Shown here in pieces: positions 40,313 to 56,357 of a stretch of DNA of 64,000 nt. This DNA comes from Methanoculleus sediminis. GTDB lineage: Archaea; Halobacteriota; Methanomicrobia; Methanomicrobiales; Methanoculleaceae. A program made the translations under genes and the position numbers. The stretch is from assembly GCF_001017125.1 (NCBI RefSeq), contig NZ_JXOJ01000002.1, positions 161,033 to 225,032 of the forward strand, given 5' to 3'. Every line of letters starts with the position of its first letter. The stretch's first letter is position 1. The notes below the pieces were generated by a model. That model did not search any database. It was not told where the DNA came from and worked only from the letters and a program-made list of their open reading frames with translations.

Positions 40313-41284
40313 ATGAAGATAAATGCGACTCATCTGGCGGCAGGCATCATCACGATCCTGCTCATCCTCGCCCTCTGTGCCGGGTGCACGAGTCCGGCGC
40401 CGGGCGGAAACGAGACGCCGGCCGGCACGGCGACGACCGCTCCCGCCGGCGGGGGAAACGTCCTGCGGATAGCCACCACGACGAGCCTGGAGAACACCGG
40501 GCTGCTCGCGGAACTCGAACGGGTCTACGAGGAGGAAACCGGTATGGACCTCCAGTTCATCGCCCAGGGCACCGGACAGTCGATCGACTCCGGCAGGCGC
40601 GGCGACGTCGACCTGGTGCTCGTCCACGCCCCGGACCTTGAGCAGCAGTTCATCGACGACGGCTTCGGGATCAACCCGCGGTGCATCGCCTACAACTACT
40701 ACATCATCGTCGGGCCCGAGTCCGACCCGGCGGGGATCGCGAACATGACCCCGGTGGAGGCCTTCCGGACGATCTACGCGGCCGGCACGAATGAGACGGC
40801 GGGTGTCGCCTTCGTCTCCCGTGGCGACAACTCCGGGACACACACCCAGGAGCAGGTGCTCTGGGAGCAGGCGGGCTACGATTACGATACCGAGATCCTG
40901 GACGCCGGGGCCTGGTACGTCGAGGCCGGCAAAGGCATGGGCGACACCCTGATCCTCGCAAACGAGCAGCAGGCATACACGCTCTCCGATGAGGGGACCT
41001 ATCTTTCGTTTGCCGACCGACTCGACCTTGCACCGGTCGTCGCCGAGGGGGCGGAACTGCTGAACCGCTACAGCGCGATCGCCGTCAACCCCGCACAACA
41101 CCCCGGCGTGAACGCAGAGGGGGCCGCGGACTTCATCAACTGGCTCACCACGAACGAGACGAAACAGATGATCGGTGAGTTCGGCGCCGAAGAGTTCGGC
41201 AAGCCGCTCTTCACGCCCCTCTACGCTCCCGAGTGTACCGAACCGCCGTTCAACTGCACCTGCACCGGAGAGGTGGCCGGATAA
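40313..41284 (+). CDS. tupA: Tungstate ABC transporter substrate-binding lipoprotein (TupA type), copy 1
   Basis: A 323-residue exported lipoprotein: signal segment and lipobox LCAGC (Cys25), then a Thr/Gly/Pro linker. The mature start LRIATTTSLENTGLL is the TupA hallmark oxyanion site; VSRGDNSGTHTQE and the TLSDEGTYL region also match. It captures tungstate (perhaps molybdate) outside the membrane for the permease and ATPase encoded next. It ends with an unusual Cys-rich tail (PECTEPPFNCTCTGEV). Confidence 0.9.
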   Translation: MKINATHLAAGIITILLILALCAGCTSPAPGGNETPAGTATTAPAGGGNVLRIATTTSLENTGLLAELERVYEEETGMDLQFIAQGTGQSIDSGRRGDVDLVLVHAPDLEQQFIDDGFGINPRCIAYNYYIIVGPESDPAGIANMTPVEAFRTIYAAGTNETAGVAFVSRGDNSGTHTQEQVLWEQAGYDYDTEILDAGAWYVEAGKGMGDTLILANEQQAYTLSDEGTYLSFADRLDLAPVVAEGAELLNRYSAIAVNPAQHPGVNAEGAADFINWLTTNETKQMIGEFGAEEFGKPLFTPLYAPECTEPPFNCTCTGEVAG

Positions 41285-41351
41285 GCGGCATCAGGGACGG
41301 ATGGCAGCCGCGGACCAAGGTGAATAACGGCATGACGGGGGTTGAGGGAGC

Positions 41352-42047
41352 GTGGTGAACGGGAACCCGATCATCGAGGGGTTCGTCGAGGCCATCGAGC
41401 TCATCATCACCCTCGACCCGCAGGTGGTGGAGATCACCATCCGCTCGCTCTACGTCTCCCTCACCGCCACCTTCTTTGCCGCACTGATCGCCCTGCCGCT
41501 CGGGGCGCTCATATACTTCTACGAGTTCCGGGGCAAGCACGCGGTCGTCTCCACGCTGCAGACGCTGTATGCGCTCCCCACGGTCATCGTGGGCCTGATC
41601 GTGTTCCTGCTCCTCTCCAACGTCGGGCCTTTCGGGTTTCTTCGTTTCCTCTACACCCCCGGCGGCATGATCGCCGCCCAGACCGTCCTCATCATCCCGC
41701 TCCTGATGGGGCTGACGGTCTCGGCGCTCTCCGGGATCGACCGGGACAAGCGCTACACGATCACTGCGCTCGGCGCGAGCAGGCTCCAGACGGTCATGAC
41801 CATCATCGCGGAGGCCCGGTTCGCGGTCATGTCCGGCGTCCTCCTGGGCTTCGGGCGGGCGATCGCCGAGGTCGGGACGGTGATGATCGTCGGCGGCAAC
41901 ATCCGGGGCGCCACCCGCGTCCTCACCACCGCGATCGCGCTCAACACCTCGATGGCAAACTATTCCCTCTCGATTGCACTCGGGATCATCCTCCTTGCGG
42001 TGGCGCTCGGGGTGAACATAGCCCTCTCCCTGGTGCAGCGGCGGTGA
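41352..42047 (+). CDS. tupB: Tungstate ABC transporter permease (TupB type), copy 1
   Basis: A 231-residue inner-membrane permease with five or six hydrophobic segments. The EAA loop appears as ALGASRLQTVMTIIAEARFAV. GFGRAIAEVGTVMIVGGNI is typical of TupB. The start is GTG at 41352 or 41355. It is 5 bp upstream of the ATPase gene. Confidence 0.9.
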   Translation: MVNGNPIIEGFVEAIELIITLDPQVVEITIRSLYVSLTATFFAALIALPLGALIYFYEFRGKHAVVSTLQTLYALPTVIVGLIVFLLLSNVGPFGFLRFLYTPGGMIAAQTVLIIPLLMGLTVSALSGIDRDKRYTITALGASRLQTVMTIIAEARFAVMSGVLLGFGRAIAEVGTVMIVGGNIRGATRVLTTAIALNTSMANYSLSIALGIILLAVALGVNIALSLVQRR

Positions 42048-42051
42048 TACC

Positions 42052-43137
42052 ATGACGATCATCGAAGCACACAACATCAGAAAATCCTACGGCAGCCTTG
42101 AAGTCCTGCACGACGTCGACCTCTTGGTCGAAGAAGGCGAGATCCTCGGACTCATCGGCCCGAGCGGGTCGGGGAAGAGCACGCTTCTGCGGCTCCTCGA
42201 CCTGATCGAGCCCGCGAACGCCGGGGAACTCTCGGTCTTCGGGATCGACACGGTCACGGATCGCGGCACCTGGCTCGACCTCCGCCGCCGGATGGGAATG
42301 CTCTTTCAACGGCCGGTCGTCTTCAACGCATCCGTCTACGACAACGTCGCGATGGGGATGCGCTACCGCGGCGCCCCGCGTGACGAGATCGAGCGGAAGG
42401 TGAAGGAAGCCCTCGAAGCCGTCGGGCTCTCCCGTTACATCAAAAGCCGGGCGCTCGATCTCTCCGGCGGCGAGCAGCAGCGGGTGGCACTCTCACGGGT
42501 GCTCGTGACCGACCCCGAGATCCTCTTCCTGGACGAGCCGACGGCGAACCTGGACCCGACATCCACCGCCACTATCGAGGAGATCGTGACACGGCTGAAC
42601 CGCGAGGCAGGAACGACCGTCCTCATAAGCACCCACGATCTGGCGCAGGGGCAGCGTCTCGCCCACCGGGTCGGGGTGATGATCGAGGGCACGATCGCCC
42701 AGACCGGGCCTTCCCGGGAGATATTCCGCGAGCCGAAGAGCCAGAGGATCGCCCGGTTCGTGGGCGTCCAGAACATCGTCCCCGGCCGGGTCGTGGCGCA
42801 ACGAGAGGGGCTCACCGTGGTGGAGGCGCAAGGCAAGGAGATCTTCTCGGCGACTTCCCCGCCCGCCGACGAAGTCGAGATGATCGTCCGGGGCGAAGAC
42901 ATCTCCCTGCACCGGAGGAAGCCCGGCTACGAGGAGGCGGAGAACCTCTTCCCCGCCACGGTCACCGCCATCGAGCCCACGGCCCCGTTCGTGAATGTTG
43001 CGGTGCATTGCGAGTGCGATCTCGTCGCACTGGTGACCGCGAGGAGGGCGGAGACCCTCGGCCTCGAGATCGGCATGGAGGTCTGGGTCTCCCTCCAGGC
43101 GAAGGCGGTCCACCTTATCCCGCAGGCGGGGCGCTGA
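42052..43137 (+). CDS. tupC: Tungstate ABC transporter ATP-binding protein (TupC type), copy 1
   Basis: A 361-residue ATPase: Walker A GPSGSGKST, ABC signature LSGGEQQRVALSR, Walker B EILFLDEP and the switch His in STHDLAQ. A C-terminal TOBE-like oxyanion-sensing region of about 120 residues (from NIVPGRVVAQREGLTVVE) suggests feedback by bound tungstate/molybdate. It pairs with the preceding permease. Confidence 0.92.
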   Translation: MTIIEAHNIRKSYGSLEVLHDVDLLVEEGEILGLIGPSGSGKSTLLRLLDLIEPANAGELSVFGIDTVTDRGTWLDLRRRMGMLFQRPVVFNASVYDNVAMGMRYRGAPRDEIERKVKEALEAVGLSRYIKSRALDLSGGEQQRVALSRVLVTDPEILFLDEPTANLDPTSTATIEEIVTRLNREAGTTVLISTHDLAQGQRLAHRVGVMIEGTIAQTGPSREIFREPKSQRIARFVGVQNIVPGRVVAQREGLTVVEAQGKEIFSATSPPADEVEMIVRGEDISLHRRKPGYEEAENLFPATVTAIEPTAPFVNVAVHCECDLVALVTARRAETLGLEIGMEVWVSLQAKAVHLIPQAGR

Positions 43138-43259: not shown

Positions 43260-44351
43260 ATGAAATCAACCCGACTGTATGCGTTTATCTGTCTCATCGT
43301 CGCTGCCGCGGTCATGATCTGCGGCTGCACGGGGACAACGAACACCGATTCGACGCCCGGTGCAGGCAGCCAGACCACGACCCCCACGGCGACGGCAACC
43401 GCCGCCGGAGAAGTCCAGGTGAAGGTCTTCCATGCCGGCAGCCTGACCGGGCCGTTTGAGAAGGTGAAGGCAGAGTTCGAAGCCGATCACCCCGGCGTCA
43501 CCGTGCTCCTCGAGCCCGCCGGCAGTGTCGATTGCATCAAGAAGATCACCGAGAACGGCAAGCCCGCCGACGTCCTCGCCTCCGCCGACTACTACCTCAT
43601 CCCTGAGATGATGATCCCGGAGCACGCCGACTGGTACCTCACGTTCGCGAAGAACCGGATGGTCCTTACCTACTCAAACGACAGCAAGTACGCCGGCGAG
43701 ATCACCGCCGAGAACTGGTACGAGATCCTCGACCGCGACGGCGTCCGATGGGGCTTCTCCGACCCGAACTCCGACCCCTGCGGCTACCGCACCCCGATGG
43801 TGATCCAGCTCGCCGAGGCCTACTATGAAAACGACCAGATCTTCGAGACTCTTGTCAGCGAGCACAGCAACATTACCGTCACCGAGGCAGACGGCGTCTA
43901 CACGATCCACGCCGCCGACCCGAAGCCCGACAGCACCACCCTGACGATCCGCCCAAAAAGCGTCGAACTCGTCCAGATGGTCCAGTCCGGCGGACTTGAC
44001 TACGCCTGGGAGTACAGGAGCGTTGCCGTCCAGCACGACCTCGAGTTCATCGAGCTCCCCGAGGAGATCGACCTCTCGTCGATAGACTTCGCGGAGAACT
44101 ACGCGACCGTCCGGACCGAGGCGAAGAAGGGCGACGGCACCACGCTCTATGGCGGCTCCGCCATCGTCTACGGCGTGACCGTCCCGAAGATCGCCGAACA
44201 TCCCGACCTCGGCACCGAGTTTGTGGAGATGCTGATCGGCGCCACCGGACAGGAGATCCTCGAGCGCGACGGCCAGCCCCCGATCGTGCCCGCGGGCGGC
44301 TACGGCGACGTCCCGACCGCTCTCCAGTCGCTCGTCGAGATGAAGGCCTGA
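43260..44351 (+). CDS. wtpA: Tungstate/molybdate ABC transporter substrate-binding lipoprotein (WtpA type)
   Basis: A 363-residue lipoprotein with lipobox ICGC (Cys23) and a Thr-rich linker. VKVFHAGSLTGPFEKVKAEF starts the ModA/WtpA domain; ADVLASADYYLIP and WGFSDPNSDPCGYRTPMV are characteristic of WtpA. In characterised archaeal relatives the site binds tungstate and molybdate with very high affinity. A T-run follows its stop, before the permease gene. Confidence 0.93.
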   Translation: MKSTRLYAFICLIVAAAVMICGCTGTTNTDSTPGAGSQTTTPTATATAAGEVQVKVFHAGSLTGPFEKVKAEFEADHPGVTVLLEPAGSVDCIKKITENGKPADVLASADYYLIPEMMIPEHADWYLTFAKNRMVLTYSNDSKYAGEITAENWYEILDRDGVRWGFSDPNSDPCGYRTPMVIQLAEAYYENDQIFETLVSEHSNITVTEADGVYTIHAADPKPDSTTLTIRPKSVELVQMVQSGGLDYAWEYRSVAVQHDLEFIELPEEIDLSSIDFAENYATVRTEAKKGDGTTLYGGSAIVYGVTVPKIAEHPDLGTEFVEMLIGATGQEILERDGQPPIVPAGGYGDVPTALQSLVEMKA

Positions 44352-44358
44352 ACCCCTC

Positions 44359-44364
44359 TTTTTT
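44359..44364 (+). terminator. T-run between wtpA and wtpB
   Basis: Six T residues eight bases after the wtpA stop, in a 66-bp gap. It may act as a partial terminator giving more binding protein than permease. Confidence 0.35.
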
Positions 44365-44417
44365 ATGCCATCAGTTATCAGCGGACGCGTACAACGCTTA
44401 TTCAGGAACGTGCCGAA

Positions 44418-45299
44418 ATGAAGACCGGAACGCTCTCGAGCGACCCCCTCCGGGGGGATGGTGAAGCAGCTCCCTCCTGGTGGAGAGAGCGCGGGAGGCG
44501 GCATATCGACTGGTGCACCGCCGGGTTCTGCATCATGGGAGGGCTGCTCGTCGGCATCACGGTGCTCGCCCTCGCGAACATGGCGACGGCGGAACTCGCC
44601 GATCCGGTGCATCTCTTCAAGGTCGCGGCGTCGTCGGAGGTGATCGGATCGATCCTCCTCACGTTCGGCGCGGGGGCGAGCGCCGTCCTTCTCCTCATCC
44701 TCTTCGGAACCCCGCTCGCCTACGTCCTCGCGCGGTCCCGCCCCTCCCGCTTCAAGGGAGTCGTCGAGAGCATCGTCGACATCCCGCTCATCCTGCCGCA
44801 CACGGTGGCGGGCCTGCTCGTCTACCTCCTCTTCATGCGCCGCGGGTGGCTCGGTGCGCCGCTCTCGGAGGTCGGGCTTGCCTTCGAGGACGCGCTCCCG
44901 GGGACGATCGTCGCGATGCTCTTCGTCGCCTCGCCGTTCTACGTCAACACCATGCGGGAGGGGTTCGAGAAGGTGCCCGTCCACCTGGAGAACGTCGCCC
45001 GCACGCTCGGGGCGGGCACCTTCACCACGTTCCGCACGGTCACGCTCCCCTTAAGCCTCCGGCACATGTACAGCGGGGCCGTTCTTGCCTGGGGGAGGGC
45101 AATCGGGGAGTTTGCCGGCGTCATCATGATCGCCTACTACCCGTTCATCATATCGACGCTGATCTACTACTCCTTCACGACGGACGGCATCCACACGAGC
45201 AGAAGCATTGCGTTTACGGTCATCCTGGTGAGCTTCGGGGTCTTCTACCTCCTCCGGCGGATGACCCGGTACCTGGGGAGGTACGATGATCGCGTTTGA
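44418..45299 (+). CDS. wtpB: Tungstate/molybdate ABC transporter permease (WtpB type)
   Basis: A 293-residue permease with about six hydrophobic segments; the EAA loop is ARTLGAGTFTTFRTVTLPLS and the WGRAIGEFAGVIMIAYYP region is typical of WtpB/ModB. An N-terminal charged extension of about 35 residues precedes the first helix, so a later start is possible. It overlaps wtpC by 14 bp. Confidence 0.9.
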   Translation: MKTGTLSSDPLRGDGEAAPSWWRERGRRHIDWCTAGFCIMGGLLVGITVLALANMATAELADPVHLFKVAASSEVIGSILLTFGAGASAVLLLILFGTPLAYVLARSRPSRFKGVVESIVDIPLILPHTVAGLLVYLLFMRRGWLGAPLSEVGLAFEDALPGTIVAMLFVASPFYVNTMREGFEKVPVHLENVARTLGAGTFTTFRTVTLPLSLRHMYSGAVLAWGRAIGEFAGVIMIAYYPFIISTLIYYSFTTDGIHTSRSIAFTVILVSFGVFYLLRRMTRYLGRYDDRV

Positions 45300-46353
45300 C
45301 CGCGTCTCGCTCGCACTCGGCTCGTTCTCGCTCGACGACGTCAGCCTGACGATCGGTAAGGGCGACTACTACTTCATCGTCGGGCCGTCGGGTGCGGGAA
45401 AGACGGTGCTTCTCGAAGCGATCGCCGGCCTCCACCGGCCGGACAGCGGTCGCGTGCTCCTCCGGGGCACCGAGATCACCGCTCTCCCCCCGGAGAAGCG
45501 GAAGGTCGCCCTCGTCTACCAGGACTACTCGCTCTTCCCGAACATGAGGGTCATCGAGAACGTCTCCTACGGTCTTCGGGTGCGGGGGATGCGAAAGGAG
45601 GAGGCCCGGGCCGAGGTCGCCCCTCTCCTCGAACGGTTCGGGATCACCCACCTCGCGGACCGCTACCCGGGAACCCTCTCCGGCGGCGAGCAGCAGCGGG
45701 TGGCGCTTGCACGGGCCGTCGCGGTGAAACCGGACATCCTCCTCCTCGACGAACCGCTCTCGGCCCTCGACCCCGTCACGCAGGAGAAGTTCATCGACGA
45801 TCTCCGGCGGCTCCACCGGGAGGACGGTCTCACCATCGTGCAGGTGAGCCACTCCCGCCGGGAAGCGCACCTGCTCGCCACCCGGATGGCGGTGATCATC
45901 GACGGGACGCTCGTGGACGAAGGAGAGGCCAACGTTGTGCTGAACGCGCCGAAGAGCCGCGAGGTCGCGTCGTTCATCGGGGTCGAGAACATCCTGGACG
46001 GAACGGTGACGGCAAACGACGGCGGGCTCGCGACGGTGGCTGCCGGAGGGCTGGCCTTCGAGGCAGTGACCGACGCAGCGGCGGGCGAGGAGGTCACCCT
46101 CTGCATCCGGGCCGACGACGTCGTCGTCGCCGTCGGGGACCGCCCGCAGTCCAGCGCCCGGAATACGATGGCCGGGACGGTTCTCCGGATCGCAGAGAAC
46201 GGCCCCGTCGCCGAGGTGCGGGTGGACGCCGGCGTGGAACTGACTGCGGTCCTGACACGGCGGTCGGTGCGCGACCTCTCGCTCGTTCCGGGAACGCCCG
46301 TCACCCTCTCCGTCAAGGCGACGGCGATCCACGTCATCCGTTCTTTTTCTTGA
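45286..46353 (+). CDS. wtpC: Tungstate/molybdate ABC transporter ATP-binding protein (WtpC type)
   Basis: A 355-residue ATPase: Walker A GPSGAGKT, Q-loop VYQDYSLFPNMRV, signature LSGGEQQRVALAR, Walker B ILLLDEP, switch His in VSHSRREA. The C-terminal TOBE domain lies at about 235-355. The 3' end overlaps the frameshifted SemiSWEET gene on the opposite strand by 20 bp. Confidence 0.93.
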   Translation: MIAFDRVSLALGSFSLDDVSLTIGKGDYYFIVGPSGAGKTVLLEAIAGLHRPDSGRVLLRGTEITALPPEKRKVALVYQDYSLFPNMRVIENVSYGLRVRGMRKEEARAEVAPLLERFGITHLADRYPGTLSGGEQQRVALARAVAVKPDILLLDEPLSALDPVTQEKFIDDLRRLHREDGLTIVQVSHSRREAHLLATRMAVIIDGTLVDEGEANVVLNAPKSREVASFIGVENILDGTVTANDGGLATVAAGGLAFEAVTDAAAGEEVTLCIRADDVVVAVGDRPQSSARNTMAGTVLRIAENGPVAEVRVDAGVELTAVLTRRSVRDLSLVPGTPVTLSVKATAIHVIRSFS

Positions 46354-46638: not shown

Positions 46639-47769
46639 TCAGGTTCCGGACCGCCGGCCTTCCCACCACCGCATCGCATAGGCAACGATCATCCCGACGA
46701 TGAACGCAAACGTGAGGCCCACTATGAGGGTGAGGACGGCGATGACCCCGGTGACCAGGTAGGACTCCGTCTTTACGCTGTGCTTCCCGAGCTCGATCGC
46801 CACGAAGACCAGGAGCGCGCCGAAGACGCCGAAGGGGATGAGGGTCAGCACCTCCGGCGGAGCGAAGGCGACGGCGAAGACGAGGATGAATATGCCGGCG
46901 ACGATGTTCGCCCCACCGGTCCTCGCGCCGAACCGGTACATGGCGGCGAGCCCCCCGGCGCCGTGGCACATGGGGAACCCCCCGAGCGGCGTCGAGACCA
47001 GGTTCATGGCCCCGATCGTCCGCGAGAGCCGGTCGGGGTCCACGCCCTTCTTCGGGAAGAGGTCGTAGGTGAGGAGGGATGTCGCGAGGATGGCGTTCGC
47101 GATCGTGAGCGGTATCTGCGGGAGGGCAAGGTCCCAGGTTCCGGCGAGGAAGTCCGCCGGCATCGGGACGACCGGGACCGGAAGCGGCATCAGGCGGAAC
47201 GGCGGCATCCCCTGCACGGCGATACCGGCGGCAAGCCCGATGAGAAGGACCAGCAGGGCGGAGACGTCCGGAATCCGGGTGCGCTGCGACAGAACGAAGA
47301 AGACGAGGATGATCCCGATGGACACGGCTGCAAAGAGAGCGTCGGCGACGATGTAGCCGAGCGACGTCCTGAGGAGAAGGAGTGCAAGCCCCGCCTGAAC
47401 CCCCCGGACGACGCTTTTCGGGATATGCTCCCCGAGCCAGGTCATGCCGCCGACGAGCCCGAGCAGGAGGAAGAGCGCGCCGACGACAAGGCCCGAGGCC
47501 ACGATCTCGCCGGCACAAAGCCCTTCCGCGATGACGATGGCACCGATCGCCTTCATCGGTTCGATGGGGACGGGAAGGCGGTAGTAGAGACCGGCGATGA
47601 CGAACCACGCGGCGAGGAAGAGGAAGAAATGGCTGACGTTCACGTCCGGGCAGACGATGGCGACACCGAGCAGGATGGGAAAGATGGTGCCGAAGTCGCC
47701 GACAGCTCCGGCAACCTCCTCCAGGGTGATCCGAATGCCTTTCTCTTCCGTCCCGGTGCTCTCCGTCAT
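46639..47769 (-). CDS. MOT1-family molybdate/sulfate permease
   Basis: A 376-residue polytopic membrane protein, about ten to twelve segments, of the MFS_MOT1 type: VAGAVGDFGTIFPILLGVAI near the start, VPIEPMKAIGAIVIAEGLC, and GGFPMCHGAGGLAAMYRFGA. MOT1 proteins of plants and algae are high-affinity molybdate carriers; archaeal substrate is inferred. It lies between the Wtp and Mod operons, divergent from the latter, which supports a molybdate role. Confidence 0.85.
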   Translation of the reverse strand: MTESTGTEEKGIRITLEEVAGAVGDFGTIFPILLGVAIVCPDVNVSHFFLFLAAWFVIAGLYYRLPVPIEPMKAIGAIVIAEGLCAGEIVASGLVVGALFLLLGLVGGMTWLGEHIPKSVVRGVQAGLALLLLRTSLGYIVADALFAAVSIGIILVFFVLSQRTRIPDVSALLVLLIGLAAGIAVQGMPPFRLMPLPVPVVPMPADFLAGTWDLALPQIPLTIANAILATSLLTYDLFPKKGVDPDRLSRTIGAMNLVSTPLGGFPMCHGAGGLAAMYRFGARTGGANIVAGIFILVFAVAFAPPEVLTLIPFGVFGALLVFVAIELGKHSVKTESYLVTGVIAVLTLIVGLTFAFIVGMIVAYAMRWWEGRRSGT

Positions 47770-47948: not shown

Positions 47949-48767
47949 ATGAAAGCACACCTGCTTCTCATTCTTGCACTGCTTATCGCGGCAACCGCCG
48001 CCTTTGCATGCGGATGTACCGGAACCACCACCGATGCGCCGGGAGAGACCGAAACGGCCAAACCCGAGCTGCTCGTCTACTGCGGGGCGGGCATGCGCGA
48101 ACCGATGGACGAGATCGCGGCGACCTTCACGAACAGGACGGGCATCCCGATCAACTTCGTCTTCGGCGGGTCGAACACCCTGCTTACCCAGATGGAACTG
48201 ACGGAGATGGGCGACGTCTACATGCCGGGCGCGACCGCCTACTTCGATGCGGCCCGCGAGAAGGGGCTGGTCGAGGAGGAGCACCTGATCGTCTACCACG
48301 TCCCGGTCATCGCCGTTCCGAAGGGCAACCCGGCCGGCATCACCTGCCTTGAGGACATGACAAAGCCCGGGGTGCGGGTGGCTCTCGGCGAGAATCCCGG
48401 CACCGCCATCGGGCAGCTGACCGACAAACTCCTCGAAAAGAACGACCTCCTTACTGACGTGGAGAAGAACCTCGTGACCCGCAGCGGCACGGTGAACGAA
48501 CTGCTGGTCTACATCTCCATGGGACAGGCCGATGTCGGTATCATCTGGGAGGACCTCTACGTGCCCGAGAAGATGGATATCATCTACATCCCGAACGCCG
48601 ACAACCTGGTCAAGATCGTCCCCATCGGCGTGCTGACCTCGTCCGAGCACTCCACCGAAGCGGAGCAGTTCACCGCGTTCGTCATCTCCGAAGAAGGAAA
48701 GGAGATCTTCACCAGGCACGGTTTCATCACCTACCCGAGCGAGACCTACACAGACCTCAAACCCTGA
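47949..48767 (+). CDS. modA: Molybdate ABC transporter substrate-binding lipoprotein (ModA type)
   Basis: A 272-residue lipoprotein with lipobox ACGC (Cys23). ELLVYCGAGMREPMDEIAAT is the ModA start, with FGGSNTLLTQM and DVYMPGATAYFD giving the anion-site Ser residues; VRVALGENPGTAIGQ follows. Third distinct oxyanion-binding protein of the island. First gene of a four-gene operon. Confidence 0.9.
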   Translation: MKAHLLLILALLIAATAAFACGCTGTTTDAPGETETAKPELLVYCGAGMREPMDEIAATFTNRTGIPINFVFGGSNTLLTQMELTEMGDVYMPGATAYFDAAREKGLVEEEHLIVYHVPVIAVPKGNPAGITCLEDMTKPGVRVALGENPGTAIGQLTDKLLEKNDLLTDVEKNLVTRSGTVNELLVYISMGQADVGIIWEDLYVPEKMDIIYIPNADNLVKIVPIGVLTSSEHSTEAEQFTAFVISEEGKEIFTRHGFITYPSETYTDLKP

Positions 48768-48788: not shown

Positions 48789-49292
48789 ATGGAAGTCACC
48801 TACCAGATCATAGGAACCATTCACTCACCGTTCACCGACCAGGACACAACGCCCATCCAGAGCATCTTCTCCGAGGCGGAGGGGACGATCGAGGTCTTTC
48901 CCGAGTACGCCGACGGGCTCGAGGGGGTCGAGGGGTTCTCCCACATCATCCTCCTCTACCACTTCCACCGGGCGAACGGCTTCAGCCTGCGCCAGCGCCC
49001 GTTCGTCGACGGCAGCAAGGAGCGCGGAATCTTTGCCATACGCCATTTCAGCCGCCCGAACCCGATCGGGATCTCCCTTGTCGAGGTCGTCTCCGTCGAG
49101 GGCAACACCGTCCGGGTCCGCGGGATCGACGTGCTGGACGGCACGCCGCTCCTCGACATCAAACCCTACGTCCGCCAGTTCGATCACCGCGACGAAGTCC
49201 GGAGCGGCTGGGTCGACGCAAAGCACATCGAGGAGGTGAAGGTCCGGAGTTTCTCCCCAAAGGATCTCCGGGAGCATGAGGAGTCTTCATGA
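48789..49292 (+). CDS. TrmO/TsaA-like (UPF0066) protein inside the Mod operon
   Basis: A 167-residue beta-barrel protein of the TrmO family: YQIIGTIHSPFTDQ, GFSHIILLYHFHRANGFS, and RHFSRPNPIGISLVEVVSVE contain the SAM-binding signatures. Bacterial TrmO N6-methylates t6A37 of tRNA-Thr. Here it sits between modA and modB and overlaps modB by 4 bp, so it is translated with the transporter. It may have a Mo-related rather than tRNA role; this is an inference. Confidence 0.88.
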   Translation: MEVTYQIIGTIHSPFTDQDTTPIQSIFSEAEGTIEVFPEYADGLEGVEGFSHIILLYHFHRANGFSLRQRPFVDGSKERGIFAIRHFSRPNPIGISLVEVVSVEGNTVRVRGIDVLDGTPLLDIKPYVRQFDHRDEVRSGWVDAKHIEEVKVRSFSPKDLREHEESS

Positions 49293-50086
49293 ACCTGAAA
49301 AACTCCTCTTATTTTCGGATGGCGACCGTTGCGGTCGCACTCCTCATCGCGGCCTTCATCGTAATGGTCCTCGTCGGGGTGGTCACCCACTCCCCCCCGG
49401 CCGTTCTCATCGAATGCTTCCTCTCCGAGGAGATCCAGTTCGCCATCAGGCTCTCGATCATCACCTCCGTCATCTCGACGCTCCTCTGCATCCTGGTCGC
49501 CGTGCCGGTGGCCTATGCCCTCGCCCGCTACACGTTCCCGGGCAAGACGGTGATGAACATGCTGATGGATATCCCGATGGCGCTCCCGCCGCTCGTGGCG
49601 GGCGTGGGGCTTCTGCTCTTCTTCGGGGTATCTCCGGTAGGAAAGTCGCTTGCTGCCGCGGGGCTCGCGTTCGTCTTCACGCCGCTCGGGATCATCATGG
49701 CCCAGTTCTTCGTGAACCTGCCCTACATGCTCCGGGTGACCCGTTCGACGTTCCAGGGCGTCAACCCCCGCTACGAGTACGTGGCAAAGACGCTCGGCTG
49801 CACCGACGCTCAGGCCTTCTGGCGGGTCACGCTCCCGATGTCCTGGAACGGCCTCCTCGCGGGATCGGTGATCACCTGGTCGAAGGGGATCGGTGAGTTC
49901 GGCGCCGGGCTGATGCTTGCCGGCGCAACGCGGATGAAGACCGAGACGCTTCCGCTCTCGCTCTTCCTGAATATGTCCACCGGAAAACTCGAGTATGCCA
50001 TCGCTGCGGCGACGATCCTCATCATGATCTCGGTCGTCTCGCTCTACGCTTTCGAGCGCTACGGCGGAGCCACGCACGTCTACTAG
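49289..50086 (+). CDS. modB: Molybdate ABC transporter permease (ModB type)
   Basis: A 265-residue permease with about six helices; EAA loop AKTLGCTDAQAFWRVTLPMS and SKGIGEFGAGLMLAGATRMK are standard ModB features. It begins inside the stop of the TrmO-like gene and ends 11 bp before modC. Confidence 0.92.
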   Translation: MNLKNSSYFRMATVAVALLIAAFIVMVLVGVVTHSPPAVLIECFLSEEIQFAIRLSIITSVISTLLCILVAVPVAYALARYTFPGKTVMNMLMDIPMALPPLVAGVGLLLFFGVSPVGKSLAAAGLAFVFTPLGIIMAQFFVNLPYMLRVTRSTFQGVNPRYEYVAKTLGCTDAQAFWRVTLPMSWNGLLAGSVITWSKGIGEFGAGLMLAGATRMKTETLPLSLFLNMSTGKLEYAIAAATILIMISVVSLYAFERYGGATHVY

Positions 50087-50097
50087 GAGGTTCACCC

Positions 50098-51153
50098 ATG
50101 CTTGTCATTGACTCCGTATCCAAGAGCCTCGGAGAGTTTTCGCTCTCGAACGTATCGCTCTCGGTCGAAGACGGGGAGTACTTCATCGTCCTCGGCCCCA
50201 CCGGCGCAGGGAAGACGATCCTTCTTGAGACGATTGCCGGGATCTACACCCCCGATGCGGGCAGGATTCTCTTGAACGGCCGGGACATAACGGACGTCCC
50301 GGCGAGGGAGCGCAGGATCGGCATGGTCTACCAGGACTACATGCTCTTCCCGCACCTGACCGTCGAAGCGAATATCGGTTTCGGGTTGAAGTCCCGCGCC
50401 GATCCCGCGTTCATCCGCGGAAAAGTGGAGGAGAGCGCGGATCTCCTGAACATCGGCCACCTCCTCCAGCGCTACCCGGGCACGCTCTCGGGCGGCGAGC
50501 AGCAGCGCGCGGCGATTGCCCGGGCGCTGGTGATGGAGCCGGAAGCCCTGCTGCTCGACGAACCGCTCTCCGCGCTCGACGTGAAGACGCGCGAGAACCT
50601 CCGGGCGGAACTCGCCCGGATCCACGAGGCCACCGGGACGACGATCGTCCACATCACCCATAACTTCGAGGAGGTCTTCGACCTCGCCGACCGGGTGGCG
50701 ATCATGCGCGGCGGCGACGTGATCCAGGTGGGGACGCCGGAGGAGATCTTCCGACGGCCGAACTCCGACTTCGTCGCGGGTTTTGTCGGGGTGGAGAACC
50801 TCTTCTGCGGAACAGGCTCGGGCGACGGGACGGTCGCGGTGGGGGATCTCCGGATACGTGCGGAGAACGCCATACCCGGCCCCGTCTCCGTTGCAATCCG
50901 GCCGGAGGAGATCCTGCTCTCGAAGACGCCTCTGCCGGAAAACGGGAAAAACGTCGTCATCGGCCGCGTGGATTCGGTGCGGCCGAACGGGGGGCTGGTC
51001 CGGGTCTCGGTCGACGCCGGAGTGCAGTTTCGGGTGACCCTGACACGGCAGGGGTTCGAGGAGACGGGCGTCGCACCCGGCGACGCGGTCCACCTCGCCT
51101 TCCGGTCTTCGGCGGCCCACGTCTATCCTCCGGGAGAAGAGGAGGAGGCCTGA
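50098..51153 (+). CDS. modC: Molybdate ABC transporter ATP-binding protein (ModC type)
   Basis: A 351-residue ATPase: Walker A GPTGAGKT, Q-loop VYQDYMLFPHLTV, signature LSGGEQQRAAIAR, Walker B ALLLDEP, switch His in THNFEEV, then a TOBE-type domain (about 230-345). AGGAGG precedes the ATG. The 3' end overlaps a convergent small gene by 31 bp. Confidence 0.93.
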   Translation: MLVIDSVSKSLGEFSLSNVSLSVEDGEYFIVLGPTGAGKTILLETIAGIYTPDAGRILLNGRDITDVPARERRIGMVYQDYMLFPHLTVEANIGFGLKSRADPAFIRGKVEESADLLNIGHLLQRYPGTLSGGEQQRAAIARALVMEPEALLLDEPLSALDVKTRENLRAELARIHEATGTTIVHITHNFEEVFDLADRVAIMRGGDVIQVGTPEEIFRRPNSDFVAGFVGVENLFCGTGSGDGTVAVGDLRIRAENAIPGPVSVAIRPEEILLSKTPLPENGKNVVIGRVDSVRPNGGLVRVSVDAGVQFRVTLTRQGFEETGVAPGDAVHLAFRSSAAHVYPPGEEEEA

Positions 51154-51494
51154 ACGCCGCGCGCCTGAAGTGCCCGGAGGACACCGGCACCCAGGACCTC
51201 TTCTGCGCGCTCGCCGTGCCGCTCCGCCATGACCGCGAGGAGACGCTCCGTCCCCGCGGCCGTGGTGGAGACACCGACCCGCTCGGCCCGGCGGATCAGC
51301 CCGTCCCGTTCCATCTCCCCGAAACGGGGGAGGACGTAGTAATGCGGGATCCCGAGGTGCTCGGCAAGTTTCCGTGTCGTCGGGAACCGCAGCGAGATGC
51401 CGTCCGGAGAAAAGCCGACGGTTATGCACCGGTCCTCCTCGAGGAGGATCCTGACGGCCGCATCGATTATGTCGTCGTGTTCGTGTGTGGACAT
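51123..51494 (-). CDS. Small HTH-like protein, possible regulator
   Basis: A 123-residue soluble protein. TTRKLAEHLGIPHYYVLPRF followed by GEMERDGLIRRAERVGVST has the look of a winged-helix DNA-binding unit (recognition helix then wing). No effector domain is seen. It overlaps modC tail-to-tail and lies inside the Mo/W island, so a role in oxyanion-dependent control is possible but unproven. Confidence 0.55.
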   Translation of the reverse strand: MSTHEHDDIIDAAVRILLEEDRCITVGFSPDGISLRFPTTRKLAEHLGIPHYYVLPRFGEMERDGLIRRAERVGVSTTAAGTERLLAVMAERHGERAEEVLGAGVLRALQARGVQASSSSPGG

Positions 51495-51544: not shown

Positions 51545-51778
51545 TTATGCCGCTTCCGCCTTCATCTCGCCGCGCTCTTCTTCGGGCATCTCCTCGAGGT
51601 AGATGATCTCCGCTCCGATGTCCTTTGCAATCTGTTCGAGTTCTACCTTCCGAAAGTGGGTCCCCTCCACCTTCAGGTGCTTCGATTCACCCTGCTCTTC
51701 GACGACGGCGACGACGCGGAAGCGGGGCTGCTTCACGCCGGTGCCGACCTTCTGGCGTTCACGTGCGTAGATTTTCAT
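51545..51778 (-). CDS. Conserved-looking small protein (77 residues)
   Basis: Starts MKIYARERQKVGTGVKQPRF and continues with beta-strand-rich VVAVVEEQGESKHLKVEGTH, ending in an acidic, charged helix. I do not recognise a family. It is divergent from the storage-protein-like gene and shares with it the region carrying a triple 12-bp repeat. An alternative ATG at 51790 adds four residues. Confidence 0.65.
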   Translation of the reverse strand: MKIYARERQKVGTGVKQPRFRVVAVVEEQGESKHLKVEGTHFRKVELEQIAKDIGAEIIYLEEMPEEERGEMKAEAA

Positions 51779-51790
51779 ATCTGTTTCCAT

Positions 51791-51826
51791 CCCATACCAA
51801 CTGGTATACCAGCAGGTATACACCAA
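51791..51826. promoter_or_regulatory. Triple 12-bp direct repeat, GGTATAC core
   Basis: CCCATACCAACT, GGTATACCAGCA and GGTATACACCAA follow each other exactly. The middle contains the palindrome TGGTATACCA (51802-51811). It lies in the leader/promoter between two divergent genes, 13 bp from the minus-strand start. Likely a protein-binding array. Confidence 0.6.
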
Positions 51827-51870
51827 AAGCACTTAACTTTTTCTATCATACAGGAGGTAAGGTTGTTATC

Positions 51871-52677
51871 ATGGCAGAACGGTTTGAGATGGAATCGAAG
51901 TTCCGCGGCGAGAGCCTGGTCCGGCGCGGCCTGCTTCGCGCGACCAGAAGTGGCAAACAGGTCAGGATCATGCCCGACCTGAACGTGATCAAGATCGGCG
52001 GCCACGGCGTTATCGACTACGGGCGGGAAGTGATGTTCCCGCTGATCGACGAGATAGGGGAACTCTCCCGGAACAACAAGATTCTGGTCGCCACCGGCGG
52101 CGGTGTCCGGGTGCGGCACATCCTCGACGTCGGGATCGATCTCGGGATGCCGACGGGAGTGCTTGCGGAGCTGGCGGGTAAGATCAGCGAGCAGAACGCG
52201 ATCATGATGTCAATCCTCTTCTCGAAGTACAACGGTGTCCGGATCCACACCGACGACCTCTTAAACCTCCCCTCGCTCATATCCCTCGGGATGCTGCCGG
52301 TCGTGCAGGGCACCCCGCCCTACGGGCTCTACGAGCATCCCCCGAAACTCGGAAGCATCCCGCCGCACCGAACCGATACCGGCGCCTTCCTGATGGCGGA
52401 GGTGGTCGGCGGAAAGAACTGCATCCTCGGGAAGAACGTGGACGGCCTTTATGCCGAAAACCCGTTCGTGAACCCCGACGCCGAGTTCATCCCGGAGATC
52501 ACGGCCGACGAACTCCTGGAGATGGAGATGGAGGATATGGTGCTCGAACCGAAAGCCGTCGAGCTGCTCCGGGACGCTTTCCACGTGAGAGAGATCAAGG
52601 TGGTGAACGCCCACGTGCCGGGCAACATCACGAAGGCCGTCAACGGGGAGCGGGTCGGCACCATCATCCGGGCCTGA
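51871..52677 (+). CDS. Molybdenum-storage-protein-like amino-acid-kinase-fold protein
   Basis: A 268-residue amino-acid-kinase-fold protein (UMP-kinase related). NVIKIGGHGVIDYG, LVATGGGVRVRHILDVGIDL, GMPTGVLAELAGKISEQNAI and GSIPPHRTDTGAFLMAE, then LGKNVDGLY, align by eye with the MoSto subunits of nitrogen-fixing bacteria, which store polyoxomolybdate/tungstate in an ATP-driven cage. AGGAGG precedes the ATG. Its place among four oxyanion importers supports Mo/W storage or buffering; a nucleotide-kinase role is not excluded. Confidence 0.85.
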   Translation: MAERFEMESKFRGESLVRRGLLRATRSGKQVRIMPDLNVIKIGGHGVIDYGREVMFPLIDEIGELSRNNKILVATGGGVRVRHILDVGIDLGMPTGVLAELAGKISEQNAIMMSILFSKYNGVRIHTDDLLNLPSLISLGMLPVVQGTPPYGLYEHPPKLGSIPPHRTDTGAFLMAEVVGGKNCILGKNVDGLYAENPFVNPDAEFIPEITADELLEMEMEDMVLEPKAVELLRDAFHVREIKVVNAHVPGNITKAVNGERVGTIIRA

Positions 52678-52764
52678 CGGCCCCGGAGTCAATCATTTTT
52701 GATTAACTTGGGAGAAGTCTTCTTTAGCGTTGTGTGTGGATCAGTACAGCACACGAGCGATTCC

Positions 52765-53463
52765 ATGACTCTCTACCTTGGCATTGACGACACCGACACC
52801 CGCGAGTCCCGGGGCACCGGGCGGCTCGCCCGCGCAATTGCTGCAGAACTCGCCCGGTCCTACATGGTGACCGGGGTGACCCGACACCAGCTCTTTGTCC
52901 ACCCGGCTGTTCCCTATACCTCCCACAACAGTTCCGCGGTCATCCACATTCAGGATACCGGGAACGGGATCGCGGCCGACGTCTTCGCGACGGCAAAGGA
53001 ACTGATGCTCGCCGACTTCATCGAGGGGAGCGATCCCGGGATCTGCGTCGCCGCCGACCGGAACATCAACGGCGACCTTTCCCGCTTCGGCTTCTCGGCA
53101 AAGACAAGCGTCGTGACCCAGGATCAGGCGCGCTCGCTTGCCCGTGAGGCCGGAATCCTCCTCGAGGGGCTCGGCGGCACCGAAGACGGCGTCATCGGCG
53201 CGCTTGCCGGCATCGGCCTCGCGGCATCAGGGAACGACGGCAGGTTCGTCCAGAAGGGGACGACCCGGGACCTCCGCGGCAGCCAGACGGTCGCCGCAAT
53301 CCTCGCTTCCGGCGTCGACCGGGTCATGACCCGGGACGGGACGGCGGTCGGGGAAGGCACTATCTGCTTGCGGAAGTTCCCGAAGCCCGCGTTCATCGGC
53401 GGGAAGGCGATCCTCTACGTCGAGGCGGAAGGGGATGCCTACCACGATATCGTGGTAGGCTGA
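52765..53463 (+). CDS. TiaS-like ATPase-domain protein
   Basis: A 232-residue protein. TLYLGIDDTDTRESRGTGRL is the signature of the tRNA-Ile2 agmatidine synthase TiaS N-terminal (TCKD) domain, and GAIGALAG-like IGALAGIGLAASGNDGRFV follows. At 232 residues it lacks the OB-fold and zinc region of full TiaS (about 420 residues), so it is a single-domain relative. Preferred start ATG 52765; an in-frame start lies at 52699. Probably co-transcribed with the storage-like gene. Confidence 0.75.
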   Translation: MTLYLGIDDTDTRESRGTGRLARAIAAELARSYMVTGVTRHQLFVHPAVPYTSHNSSAVIHIQDTGNGIAADVFATAKELMLADFIEGSDPGICVAADRNINGDLSRFGFSAKTSVVTQDQARSLAREAGILLEGLGGTEDGVIGALAGIGLAASGNDGRFVQKGTTRDLRGSQTVAAILASGVDRVMTRDGTAVGEGTICLRKFPKPAFIGGKAILYVEAEGDAYHDIVVG

Positions 53464-53530: not shown

Positions 53531-53557
53531 ATTAACCCAAAACACACCTATTTAAAT
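53531..53557 (+). promoter_or_regulatory. Promoter and candidate operator of Tup operon 2
   Basis: ATTAACCCAAAACACACC (53531-53548) precedes the TATA-like TATTTAAAT (53549-53557), 32-40 bp before the start. The reverse strand GTGTTTTGGGTTAAT resembles GTGTTGGTTAAT before modA. Confidence 0.45.
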
Positions 53558-53588
53558 GCACGTATTGCGATACATCTGTCTGATAACT

Positions 53589-54515
53589 ATGTACAGACGA
53601 ACTATTTTTGCCGTTGCGGCCGTCATGGTCGCCCTCCTGCTGATCTGCGGCTGTACCGGGACGACAACCGACCCGACCCCCGTGGAGAAGCAGCAACTCC
53701 GTATCGCCACGACGACCAGCCTTTACGACACCAAACTCCTCGACCACCTCACGCCGATCTTCGAGGAGAAGTACAACGCCGAGGTGCTGATCGTCTCCGC
53801 CGGGACCGGCAAAGCGATCGAATACGGGCAGCGTGGAGACGTGGACGTCCTGATGGTGCACGACCGTGCGCGTGAAGACGCCTTCCTCGCCGACGGCTAC
53901 GGCATCAACCGGCGCGTCTTCGCCTACAACTACTTCGTCCTCGTCGGGCCCGAGTCCGACCCGGCAGGTGTTGCGGGCATGCAGCCCGAAGCGGCCTTCA
54001 CCGCCATCCGCGAGACGGGCGTGGCCGGTGGTTCCGACGTAGTCTTCGTCTCCCGCGGCGACGCGTCGGGCACGCACTCCAAGGAGAAGGCCATCTGGAA
54101 AGCCGCCGGGTTCAACTACTCGACCGACGTGCAGGGCTCCGGCGACTGGTACCAGGAGGCCGGAACCGGCATGGGCGCGACCCTTGAGATGGCGAACGAG
54201 AAAGAGGCCTACACCCTCTCCGACATCGGCACCTACCTCGCCTACAAGGGCGACCTCGACCTCGTGACGCTCGTCGACGAAGGCGACATTCTGCTCAACG
54301 TCTACTGCGCGATGCAGATCAACCCCGCAAAGTACCCCGACATCAACACCACCGTCGCGAAAGACTGGGTCAACTTCATGATCTCCGACGATGTCCAGAA
54401 GGAGATCGACTCATTCGGTGTCGACCAGTACGGCCAGCCGCTCTTCTACGCCGCACAGGACGACTGGGAGAAGATCGGCGTGACCGAGGCCGAAGTGAAG
54501 GACCCGATCGCCTGA
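53589..54515 (+). CDS. tupA: Tungstate ABC transporter substrate-binding lipoprotein (TupA type), copy 2
   Basis: A 308-residue lipoprotein with lipobox ICGC (Cys22). LRIATTTSLYDTKLLDHL is the TupA oxyanion site; VSRGDASGTHSKE and TLSDIGTYLAY also match copy 1. Start ATG 53589 is chosen because the promoter TATA box lies about 32-40 bp upstream; an earlier frame would begin inside the promoter. Copy 1 and copy 2 are clear paralogues but diverged. Confidence 0.9.
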   Translation: MYRRTIFAVAAVMVALLLICGCTGTTTDPTPVEKQQLRIATTTSLYDTKLLDHLTPIFEEKYNAEVLIVSAGTGKAIEYGQRGDVDVLMVHDRAREDAFLADGYGINRRVFAYNYFVLVGPESDPAGVAGMQPEAAFTAIRETGVAGGSDVVFVSRGDASGTHSKEKAIWKAAGFNYSTDVQGSGDWYQEAGTGMGATLEMANEKEAYTLSDIGTYLAYKGDLDLVTLVDEGDILLNVYCAMQINPAKYPDINTTVAKDWVNFMISDDVQKEIDSFGVDQYGQPLFYAAQDDWEKIGVTEAEVKDPIA

Positions 54516-54536
54516 GCGGGCCAGAATCACCATCCC

Positions 54537-54541
54537 TTTTT
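54537..54541 (+). terminator. T-run between tupA and tupB, copy 2
   Basis: Five T residues 22 bases past the tupA stop. It may attenuate expression of the permease relative to the binding protein, as at wtpA-wtpB. Confidence 0.3.
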
Positions 54542-54571
54542 GCCTCCGGCAGAGTATAGTCAGGTGCAGGC

Positions 54572-55273
54572 ATGTACGAGATCATCGAGGGATTCCTGGA
54601 GGCAGCGAGACTCATTGTCACGTTCGACCCCGACGTAATGGCCATCGCCGCGCGAAGCATCATCATCTCGTTCACCGCAACGATCATCGCCACGCTGATC
54701 GCCGTTCCGCTCGGCGCCGCGATCAACTTCGGCACCTTCCCTGGAAAGAAGAACCTCGTCAACCTGATCCAGACGCTCTACTCCCTGCCGACGGTCATCG
54801 TCGGGCTGCTCATATTCCTGCTCATCTCCCGTGTCGGCCCGTTCGGGTTCCTGCGGCTGCTCTTCACCCCGACCGCGATGATCGTCGCGCAGACGGTGCT
54901 CATCCTCCCGATCATGACCGGGCTCACGATCTCCGCGCTCTCGGGCGTCGACCCGGTGATCAGGGATACCCTCCGCTCGCTCGGGGCAACAAGGCTCCAG
55001 TTCCTGGTAAACGTCTTGAAAGAAGCGCGGTTCGCGATCCTCGCATCCGTCGCGGTCGGGTTCGGGCGGGCGATATCCGAGGTCGGGGCGGCGATCCTGG
55101 TCGGCGGCAACATCGCGGCGTCGTCGTTTGCGAGTTCGACCCGGGTCCTGACGACCGCGATATCGCTCGAGACGTCGATGGGCAACATCTCCCAGTCCAT
55201 CGCGCTCGGTATCGTCCTCCTCATCATCGCCCTCGGCGTGAATCTCGCCATAACCACGGTGCAGCACCGGTGA
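54572..55273 (+). CDS. tupB: Tungstate ABC transporter permease (TupB type), copy 2
   Basis: A 233-residue permease, paralogous to the copy at 41352: both begin IIEGF-EA, with VQTLYSLPTVIVGLLIFLL-like second part and GFGRAISEVGAAILVGGNIA. About five helices; the EAA loop is SLGATRLQFLVNVLKEARF. The stop lies 4 bp before the ATPase start. Confidence 0.9.
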   Translation: MYEIIEGFLEAARLIVTFDPDVMAIAARSIIISFTATIIATLIAVPLGAAINFGTFPGKKNLVNLIQTLYSLPTVIVGLLIFLLISRVGPFGFLRLLFTPTAMIVAQTVLILPIMTGLTISALSGVDPVIRDTLRSLGATRLQFLVNVLKEARFAILASVAVGFGRAISEVGAAILVGGNIAASSFASSTRVLTTAISLETSMGNISQSIALGIVLLIIALGVNLAITTVQHR

Positions 55274-55277
55274 TTGC

Positions 55278-56357
55278 ATGATCGAATTCGACAACGTCTC
55301 AAAAAATTTCGGCGATACGAGGGTGCTTACCGGCGTCACCGGGGAGGTGAACCGGGGAGAGATCTTCACCGTCATCGGGCCGAGCGGGGCCGGGAAGTCG
55401 ACCCTGCTGCGCCTCATCGACCTCCTCGACGTCCCGGCAGGAGGGGCGATCCGGATCAACGGCCTCGACATCCATGCAGATAAGGAGAAGAGCCTCTCCG
55501 TCCGCCGGATGATGGGAATGGTCTTCCAGAAACCTGCCGTCTTCAACACGACGGTCACCGAGAATGTCGCCGTCGGCCTTCGGTTCCGGGGAGTAAGCAA
55601 GAGCGAAACCCGTAAACTGACCGAAGACGCCCTCGCCATGGTCGGCCTTGCCGGCTACGGGGAACGGCGGGCCCGAACGCTCTCGGGAGGGGAGATGCAG
55701 CGGGTGGCCCTCGCCCGGGCGATGGTGATCGAACCCGAGATCCTCCTCCTCGACGAACCGACGGCGAACCTCGACCCGGTCTCGGTGGCGATGATCGAGG
55801 ACCTGGTGGTGCGGATCAACCGCGACCTCGGGACGACGGTCATCTTCTCGACCCACGACATGTACCAGGGACAGCGGCTCGCCCACCGGATCGGGGTGCT
55901 GATGGACGGGGCGTTTGCACAGGTGGGGACGCCGAGAGAGGTCTTCACCCTCCCGGCAAGCCGGGAGGTCGCCCGGTTCGTCGGGATCGAGAATATCGTC
56001 GAGGGCGTCGTCGTCGAGAGAGAAGACGGCACCGCCGTCGTCGACGCCGGCGGCGTCCGGGTCAGGGCAAGGTCGCCGTTTCCCCGGGGAGAGAGGGTCT
56101 CTCTCTGCATCCGCTCAGAGGAGATCCGGATTGCCCCGGCGATCAGGGGGAGGAGGGTCTCCGACGGGAACATCCTCCCCGGCACGGTGACGGCCGTCGT
56201 CCCGCGCGGCCCGTTCAGCAGGGTGACGGTCGACTGCGGGTTCCCTCTCTCGTCCGTCCTCTCCTGGAAGGCGGCGGAAGATCTCGACATCCGCGAAGGG
56301 GGCCGCGTCGAGGTCGTGTTCGCGGCGGAGTCGGTCCACGCCGTCCGGCAGGGCTGA
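55278..56357 (+). CDS. tupC: Tungstate ABC transporter ATP-binding protein (TupC type), copy 2
   Basis: A 359-residue ATPase: Walker A GPSGAGKST, signature LSGGEMQRVALAR, Walker B EILLLDEP, switch His in FSTHDMYQ, and a TOBE-like C-terminal third. It has the same layout as copy 1, indicating duplication of the whole operon. Last gene of the island. Confidence 0.92.
   Translation: MIEFDNVSKNFGDTRVLTGVTGEVNRGEIFTVIGPSGAGKSTLLRLIDLLDVPAGGAIRINGLDIHADKEKSLSVRRMMGMVFQKPAVFNTTVTENVAVGLRFRGVSKSETRKLTEDALAMVGLAGYGERRARTLSGGEMQRVALARAMVIEPEILLLDEPTANLDPVSVAMIEDLVVRINRDLGTTVIFSTHDMYQGQRLAHRIGVLMDGAFAQVGTPREVFTLPASREVARFVGIENIVEGVVVEREDGTAVVDAGGVRVRARSPFPRGERVSLCIRSEEIRIAPAIRGRRVSDGNILPGTVTAVVPRGPFSRVTVDCGFPLSSVLSWKAAEDLDIREGGRVEVVFAAESVHAVRQG

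Follow-up and report, generated by a model that had tools for sequence, protein, structure and literature searches.

A single-subunit relative of the molybdenum storage protein at a molybdate/tungstate transport locus of Methanoculleus, and the small gene that accompanies it

Introduction

The molybdenum storage protein (MoSto) is the textbook example of ATP-driven metal-oxide storage and is regarded as a speciality of nitrogen fixers. The described protein (MosA/MosB), from Azotobacter vinelandii and Azospirillum, is built from alpha and beta subunits as an (alpha beta)3 assembly. Octamolybdate is bonded by His156 and Glu129 of the alpha subunit, and a tungsten cluster sits on the threefold axis, held by three symmetry-related histidines (PMC4504029). 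According to a 2019 study, MoSto is without known homologues in databases (PMC6448029). In the openly accessible literature that we searched, no paper joins MoSto with methanogens; we claim no priority.

MoSto is misannotated in public records. On plasmid p5 of Azospirillum brasilense Sp7, the MosB match lies under "hypothetical protein" (L142:4055-4948); elsewhere among Azospirillum plasmids, MosB carries the label uridine (monophosphate) kinase.

Two other systems bear comparison with the protein described here. Archaeal UMP kinase (PyrH, TIGR02076) shares its amino-acid-kinase fold. Tub of Eubacterium limosum is a tungstate storage protein treated as a TOBE-domain protein (PMC11980592), and like our protein it is proposed for cellular tungsten storage in an anaerobe; its TOBE-domain family is unrelated to the amino-acid-kinase fold, a distinction drawn from how that paper describes Tub.

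Results

The window that we analyzed is a stretch of 64,000 nucleotides from Methanoculleus sediminis, and its features are collected in Table 1. The translation of the MoSto-like open reading frame (ORF) contains VATGGGVRVRH, PTGVLAELAGKISEQNA, and PPHRTDTGAFLMAE, motifs that the initial annotation placed nearer to MoSto subunits than to ordinary UMP kinases. A phmmer search of PDB bore this out, with scores of 222 bits (E 1e-64) for MoSto beta and 162 bits (2e-46) for MoSto alpha versus at most 44 bits for UMP kinases. Identity is 42% to Azospirillum MosB and 36% to MosA. The protein does not pass the curated archaeal UMP-kinase model TIGR02076 (61 bits, cutoff 158) or TIGR02075 (44 bits, cutoff 244), and a genuine pyrH (266 bits) lies elsewhere in the same genome, at G000:C11:71383-72045. 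In the host genome searched (2.49 Mb, 15 contigs), the ORF is the sole gene of its kind, as expected from the initial proposal of one subunit type.

Table 1. Features of the MoSto-like locus and its surroundings in the window
Feature	Position	Strand	Remarks
Solute-binding protein and TOBE-domain ABC ATPase	40313-43137	+	PBP_like_2 / SBP_bac_11
WtpABC tungstate/molybdate ABC transporter	43260..46353	+	
MOT1-family molybdate transporter	46639..47769	-	PF16983, 171 bits
ModA-like solute-binding protein	47949-48767	+	
TrmO-like	48789-49292	+	
Mo-type ABC permease	49289-50086	+	
WtpC-like ATPase	50098-51153	+	
Winged-helix-like protein, candidate regulator	51123..51494	-	123 aa
"MKIY" partner	51545..51778	-	77 aa; no known family; co-occurs with MoSto-like gene in archaea and bacteria
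Tandem palindromic operator	51794..51821	.	ATACCAACTGGTATACCAGCAGGTATAC; divergent promoter region of partner and MoSto-like gene
Likely ribosome-binding site	51853..51858	+	GGAGGT, read from sequence, ahead of ATG at 51871
MoSto-like protein	51871..52677	+	268 aa; archaeal-type single-subunit clade
Weak TiaS-domain-like protein	52699-53463	+	
TupABC-like tungstate ABC transporter	53556..56357	+	
TupABC-like solute-binding protein	53556-54515	+	
TupABC-like permease	54572-55273	+	
TupABC-like ATPase	55278-56357	+	

An AlphaFold2 monomer model of the protein (pLDDT 84, pTM 0.81) has the amino-acid-kinase fold. Foldseek matched it with MoSto chains in all of the top 15 places (TM 0.81 to 0.87), followed by Pyrococcus UMP kinase at 0.68, so the structural comparison suggested at the outset also favors MoSto. 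In a 64-row maximum-likelihood tree of PyrH, MosA, MosB, archaeal-type, and tandem-pair proteins, PyrH split off at 100/100 and the archaeal-type proteins formed a single clade (100/100); placement inside the UMP kinases was not found. MosA (100/100) and MosB (99/99) stand apart from this clade, and MosA, MosB, and the tandem-pair proteins have no supported branching order among their long branches. The archaeal-type proteins are therefore a third lineage of the MoSto superfamily, neither MosA nor MosB. Sequence, predicted fold, and tree all place the 268-aa protein with MoSto, and the tree makes it a member of this lineage. We rejected a UMP kinase identity on the failed models, the separate pyrH, the tree, and the fold ranking, and we rejected simple orthology to MosA or MosB on the tree.

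We counted residues in 107 archaeal-type sequences, with Azotobacter numbering (a, alpha; b, beta) carried over through PDB alignments. The ATP-site lysines K42b and K189b correspond to K41 and K188 here and are invariant (107/107), as are the RxRH motif and P149. Like MoSto, and unlike PyrH, the archaeal-type proteins keep an N-terminal arm of about 35 residues ahead of KIGG and a long PPY...IPP loop. The cavity residues gave the opposite result. The equivalent of Glu129a is deleted and that of His156a is Gly in all 107 sequences, and the equivalent of His140a, which we take to be the threefold-axis histidine, is mostly Leu, with His not among the residues counted. Met149b, the proposed gate residue, is replaced by Thr148 in 107/107, in contrast to the Met or Ile of Desulfobacterota relatives. 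The initial annotation of a MoSto homologue thus stands for superfamily, fold, and tree; it does not extend to the alpha cluster ligands or the beta gate, and part of the absence of cavity residues that had been named as counting against it was found. In the numbering of the 268-aa protein, His126 (84/107), His156 (67/107), and His166 (86/107) are, from their conservation, candidates to replace His156a and Glu129a. With the lysines invariant, the active site looks like that of a working beta subunit; the chemistry of an alpha-type cavity is missing.

Of 35 Methanoculleus genomes, 31 have the MoSto-like gene, as do 45 of 61 relatives; for the phylum as a whole the count is 49 of 295. Most Methanomicrobiales carry the gene, and it also occurs in Methanocellales, in Asgard archaea (Borrarchaeum, Sifarchaeum), in Geobacteraceae, and in Anaeromyxobacter, nearly always with one copy per genome; two adjacent copies occur in six genomes, all of one genus. 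The Geobacteraceae and Anaeromyxobacter proteins (L060, L062, L069, L079, L085, L092, L107) form a supported clade (98/96) within the otherwise archaeal clade, a nesting that suggests transfer of the gene between domains. More distant Desulfobacterota relatives (38 to 47% identity) are mostly single genes, with tandem pairs in three genomes.

Beside the MoSto-like gene lies a 77-aa "MKIY" partner with no sequence match in Pfam, NCBIfam, or PDB and no fold match for its low-confidence model (pLDDT 66). Its invariant residues are K2, I3, R6, R8, K10, P18, A24, V25, H41, R43, E46, I50, A51, and A56. Among archaea, the partner is present in 49/49 carriers of the MoSto-like gene versus 3/246 noncarriers (Fisher 9e-53, computed on genomes that are not independent samples); the three noncarrier genomes are 70 to 85% complete. 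Among Desulfobacterota, all 13 single-gene carriers have it versus 1 of 182 noncarriers, where the match is weak, so the co-occurrence holds in two domains of life. Copy numbers of the two genes agree, at 2:2 in G044, G049, G054, G059, G279, G319, and G323. The partner is absent from the three Desulfobacterota genomes with tandem two-subunit pairs, and we did not find it on the two Azospirillum mosAB plasmids to which that search was confined. This co-occurring gene of about 75 aa is new here and uncharacterized. One genome without a MoSto-like match has a copy of the partner gene that contains an internal TAG (G088:C51:17816-18013), perhaps in decay now that the main gene has been lost.

The region between the divergent partner and MoSto-like genes contains the tandem palindromic ATACCAnnTGGTATAC operator, and its sites are the only ones in the genome with 0 to 1 mismatch. 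The palindrome occurs with up to 2 mismatches in 35 of 53 representative upstream regions versus 0.3 in shuffles, and in all 35 the partner is divergent from the MoSto-like gene. In three archaeal loci where the MoSto-like gene has been relocated (L064, L080, L087), the palindrome remains at the promoter of the partner. In archaea, the operator thus goes with the operon of the partner and is usually common to both genes; in the bacterial loci, both the palindrome and the winged-helix gene are absent. Close matches are nearly confined to the MoSto-like/partner locus in the genomes scanned, and we rejected a regulon-wide operator common to the transporters on that ground. The natural reading is that the winged-helix protein binds the operator and would also regulate itself. 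The partner and the operator are the strongest new clues and were absent from the earlier reading of the window.

Molybdate and tungstate importers surround the gene, as the initial annotation had noted. WtpA (427 bits, cutoff 355), ModA, and the Mo-type ABC permease score above their cutoffs, and the TupA-like and WtpC-like proteins score below theirs. Counting the additional solute-binding protein and ATPase directly upstream of WtpABC, about four oxyanion ABC systems and MOT1 lie within 16 kb. To score linkage, we took 34 representative loci flanked by 4 kb or more on either side, with 20 pyrH regions as controls, and asked whether a gene for a Mo/W solute-binding protein or permease, or for MOT1, lay close by. 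Such genes were found at 27 of 34 loci versus 0 of 20 controls (Fisher 3e-8), and outside Methanoculleus at 22 of 29, so the linkage is conserved beyond that genus. It recurs in varied gene orders in Methanomicrobiales, Methanocellales, Asgard archaea, and some bacteria, and this variation in order and orientation shows that the linkage is more than synteny. No importer was near the gene in seven loci, four of them bacterial; because its queries were the window's own transporters, the test is insensitive to distant bacterial importers. The single-gene Desulfobacterota versions, which share the partner, often adjoin Tup or Wtp importers.

Two further genes recur in this neighborhood. The TrmO-like tRNA methyltransferase-domain gene sits inside the ModA/permease operon and is also found beside Mo/W transporters in several relatives. 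The TiaS-domain-like gene comes directly after the MoSto-like gene in Methanoculleus, and its relatives also lie near bacterial and Desulfobacterota loci.

Nitrogenase alpha (NifD) was not found in the host genome, which has eight molybdopterin-oxidoreductase matches, four of them above 260 bits. NifD is above cutoff in 6 of the 61 relatives: 2 of 45 carriers of the MoSto-like gene versus 4 of 16 noncarriers. We therefore rejected a nitrogenase linkage; the association, if any, is negative.

Discussion

The archaeal-type clade differs from MoSto in having one subunit type in place of two, in lacking the alpha cluster ligands, in its Thr at the gate, in the presence of the partner, and in having no link to nitrogenase. 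We think it probable that the protein forms homo-oligomers and uses ATP to store or handle molybdate/tungstate, acting with its small partner. It would do so on behalf of the cell's Mo/W enzymes, the formate and formylmethanofuran dehydrogenases, and not of nitrogenase.

In such a mechanism, six identical subunits would form a hexamer like those of MoSto and UMP kinase. Each ATP site, of the MoSto-beta type with K41 and K188, would take Mg-ATP and an oxyanion delivered by the adjoining importers, and ATP hydrolysis would push the metal into the cage or through it. There the metal may be kept either as oxyanions or in small oxo-clusters, bound by residues that differ from those of the bacterial alpha subunit. 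The 77-aa partner may help, perhaps in loading, release, or capping as a stand-in for the second MoSto subunit, and the winged-helix protein would govern both genes through their common palindromic operator.

Metal storage is what we infer from this picture, and the missing equivalents of E129a, H140a, and H156a, together with the Thr at the Met149b position in every archaeal-type sequence, argue against it. A more specific proposal is a two-component Mo/W store of anaerobic archaea and bacteria, in which a homo-hexameric, ATP-driven cage is completed by a partner of about 75 aa that supplies the missing subunit and ligands, under a winged-helix repressor in archaea. We advance that version only tentatively and consider it rather less likely than not.

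The linkage to Mo/W genes is also compatible with a sensor or chaperone, and this is the main rival. Such a protein, whether it senses, chaperones, or delivers Mo/W, would depend on ATP, take up one oxyanion or a few, and hand them on for cofactor synthesis or to the regulator, with the 77-aa protein as its effector. The loss of the cluster ligands and the divergent, co-regulated unit of partner and winged-helix gene count in its favor; however, the N-terminal arm specific to MoSto and the long PPY loop are both retained in the clade, and the partner is retained in bacteria that have no winged-helix gene. We regard this alternative as unlikely, though a serious one.

Next comes a kinase that acts on some other small molecule and stands beside Mo/W genes for an unrelated reason. 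On this view the superfamily originated as kinases and the clade retains a UMP-kinase-like Gly-Thr step; the fold is that of the amino-acid kinases, and an invariant Thr148 takes the place of Met149 of MoSto beta. Against it stand the recurrence of Mo/W linkage in varied gene orders across archaeal groups and some bacteria, the failed UMP-kinase models, and the separate pyrH of the genome; we consider this quite improbable. Least probable of all is a full MoSto that builds Azotobacter-like polyoxometalate clusters in a homo-hexameric cage, for, despite the high similarity to MoSto beta, catalytic lysines included, and the Mo/W gene context, all 107 sequences lack the covalent and threefold-axis ligands of the alpha type and have an altered beta gate, and no gene for a second subunit was found in the genome.

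For the storage or handling protein that we favor, the partner gene offers a testable handle on how one subunit type could function and how a kinase fold may have become a metal pump. The single-subunit lineage is widespread, with members among methanogens, Asgard archaea, and metal-reducing bacteria; it is tied to tungstate/molybdate import and independent of nitrogenase. If our reading is true, the origin and use of the MoSto machinery would shift to anaerobic C1 metabolism.

The genus of Methanomicrobiales with two adjacent copies (L147, L150, L156, L158, L159, L160) has tandem duplicates of both the MoSto-like gene and the partner, a possible first step toward a two-subunit form.
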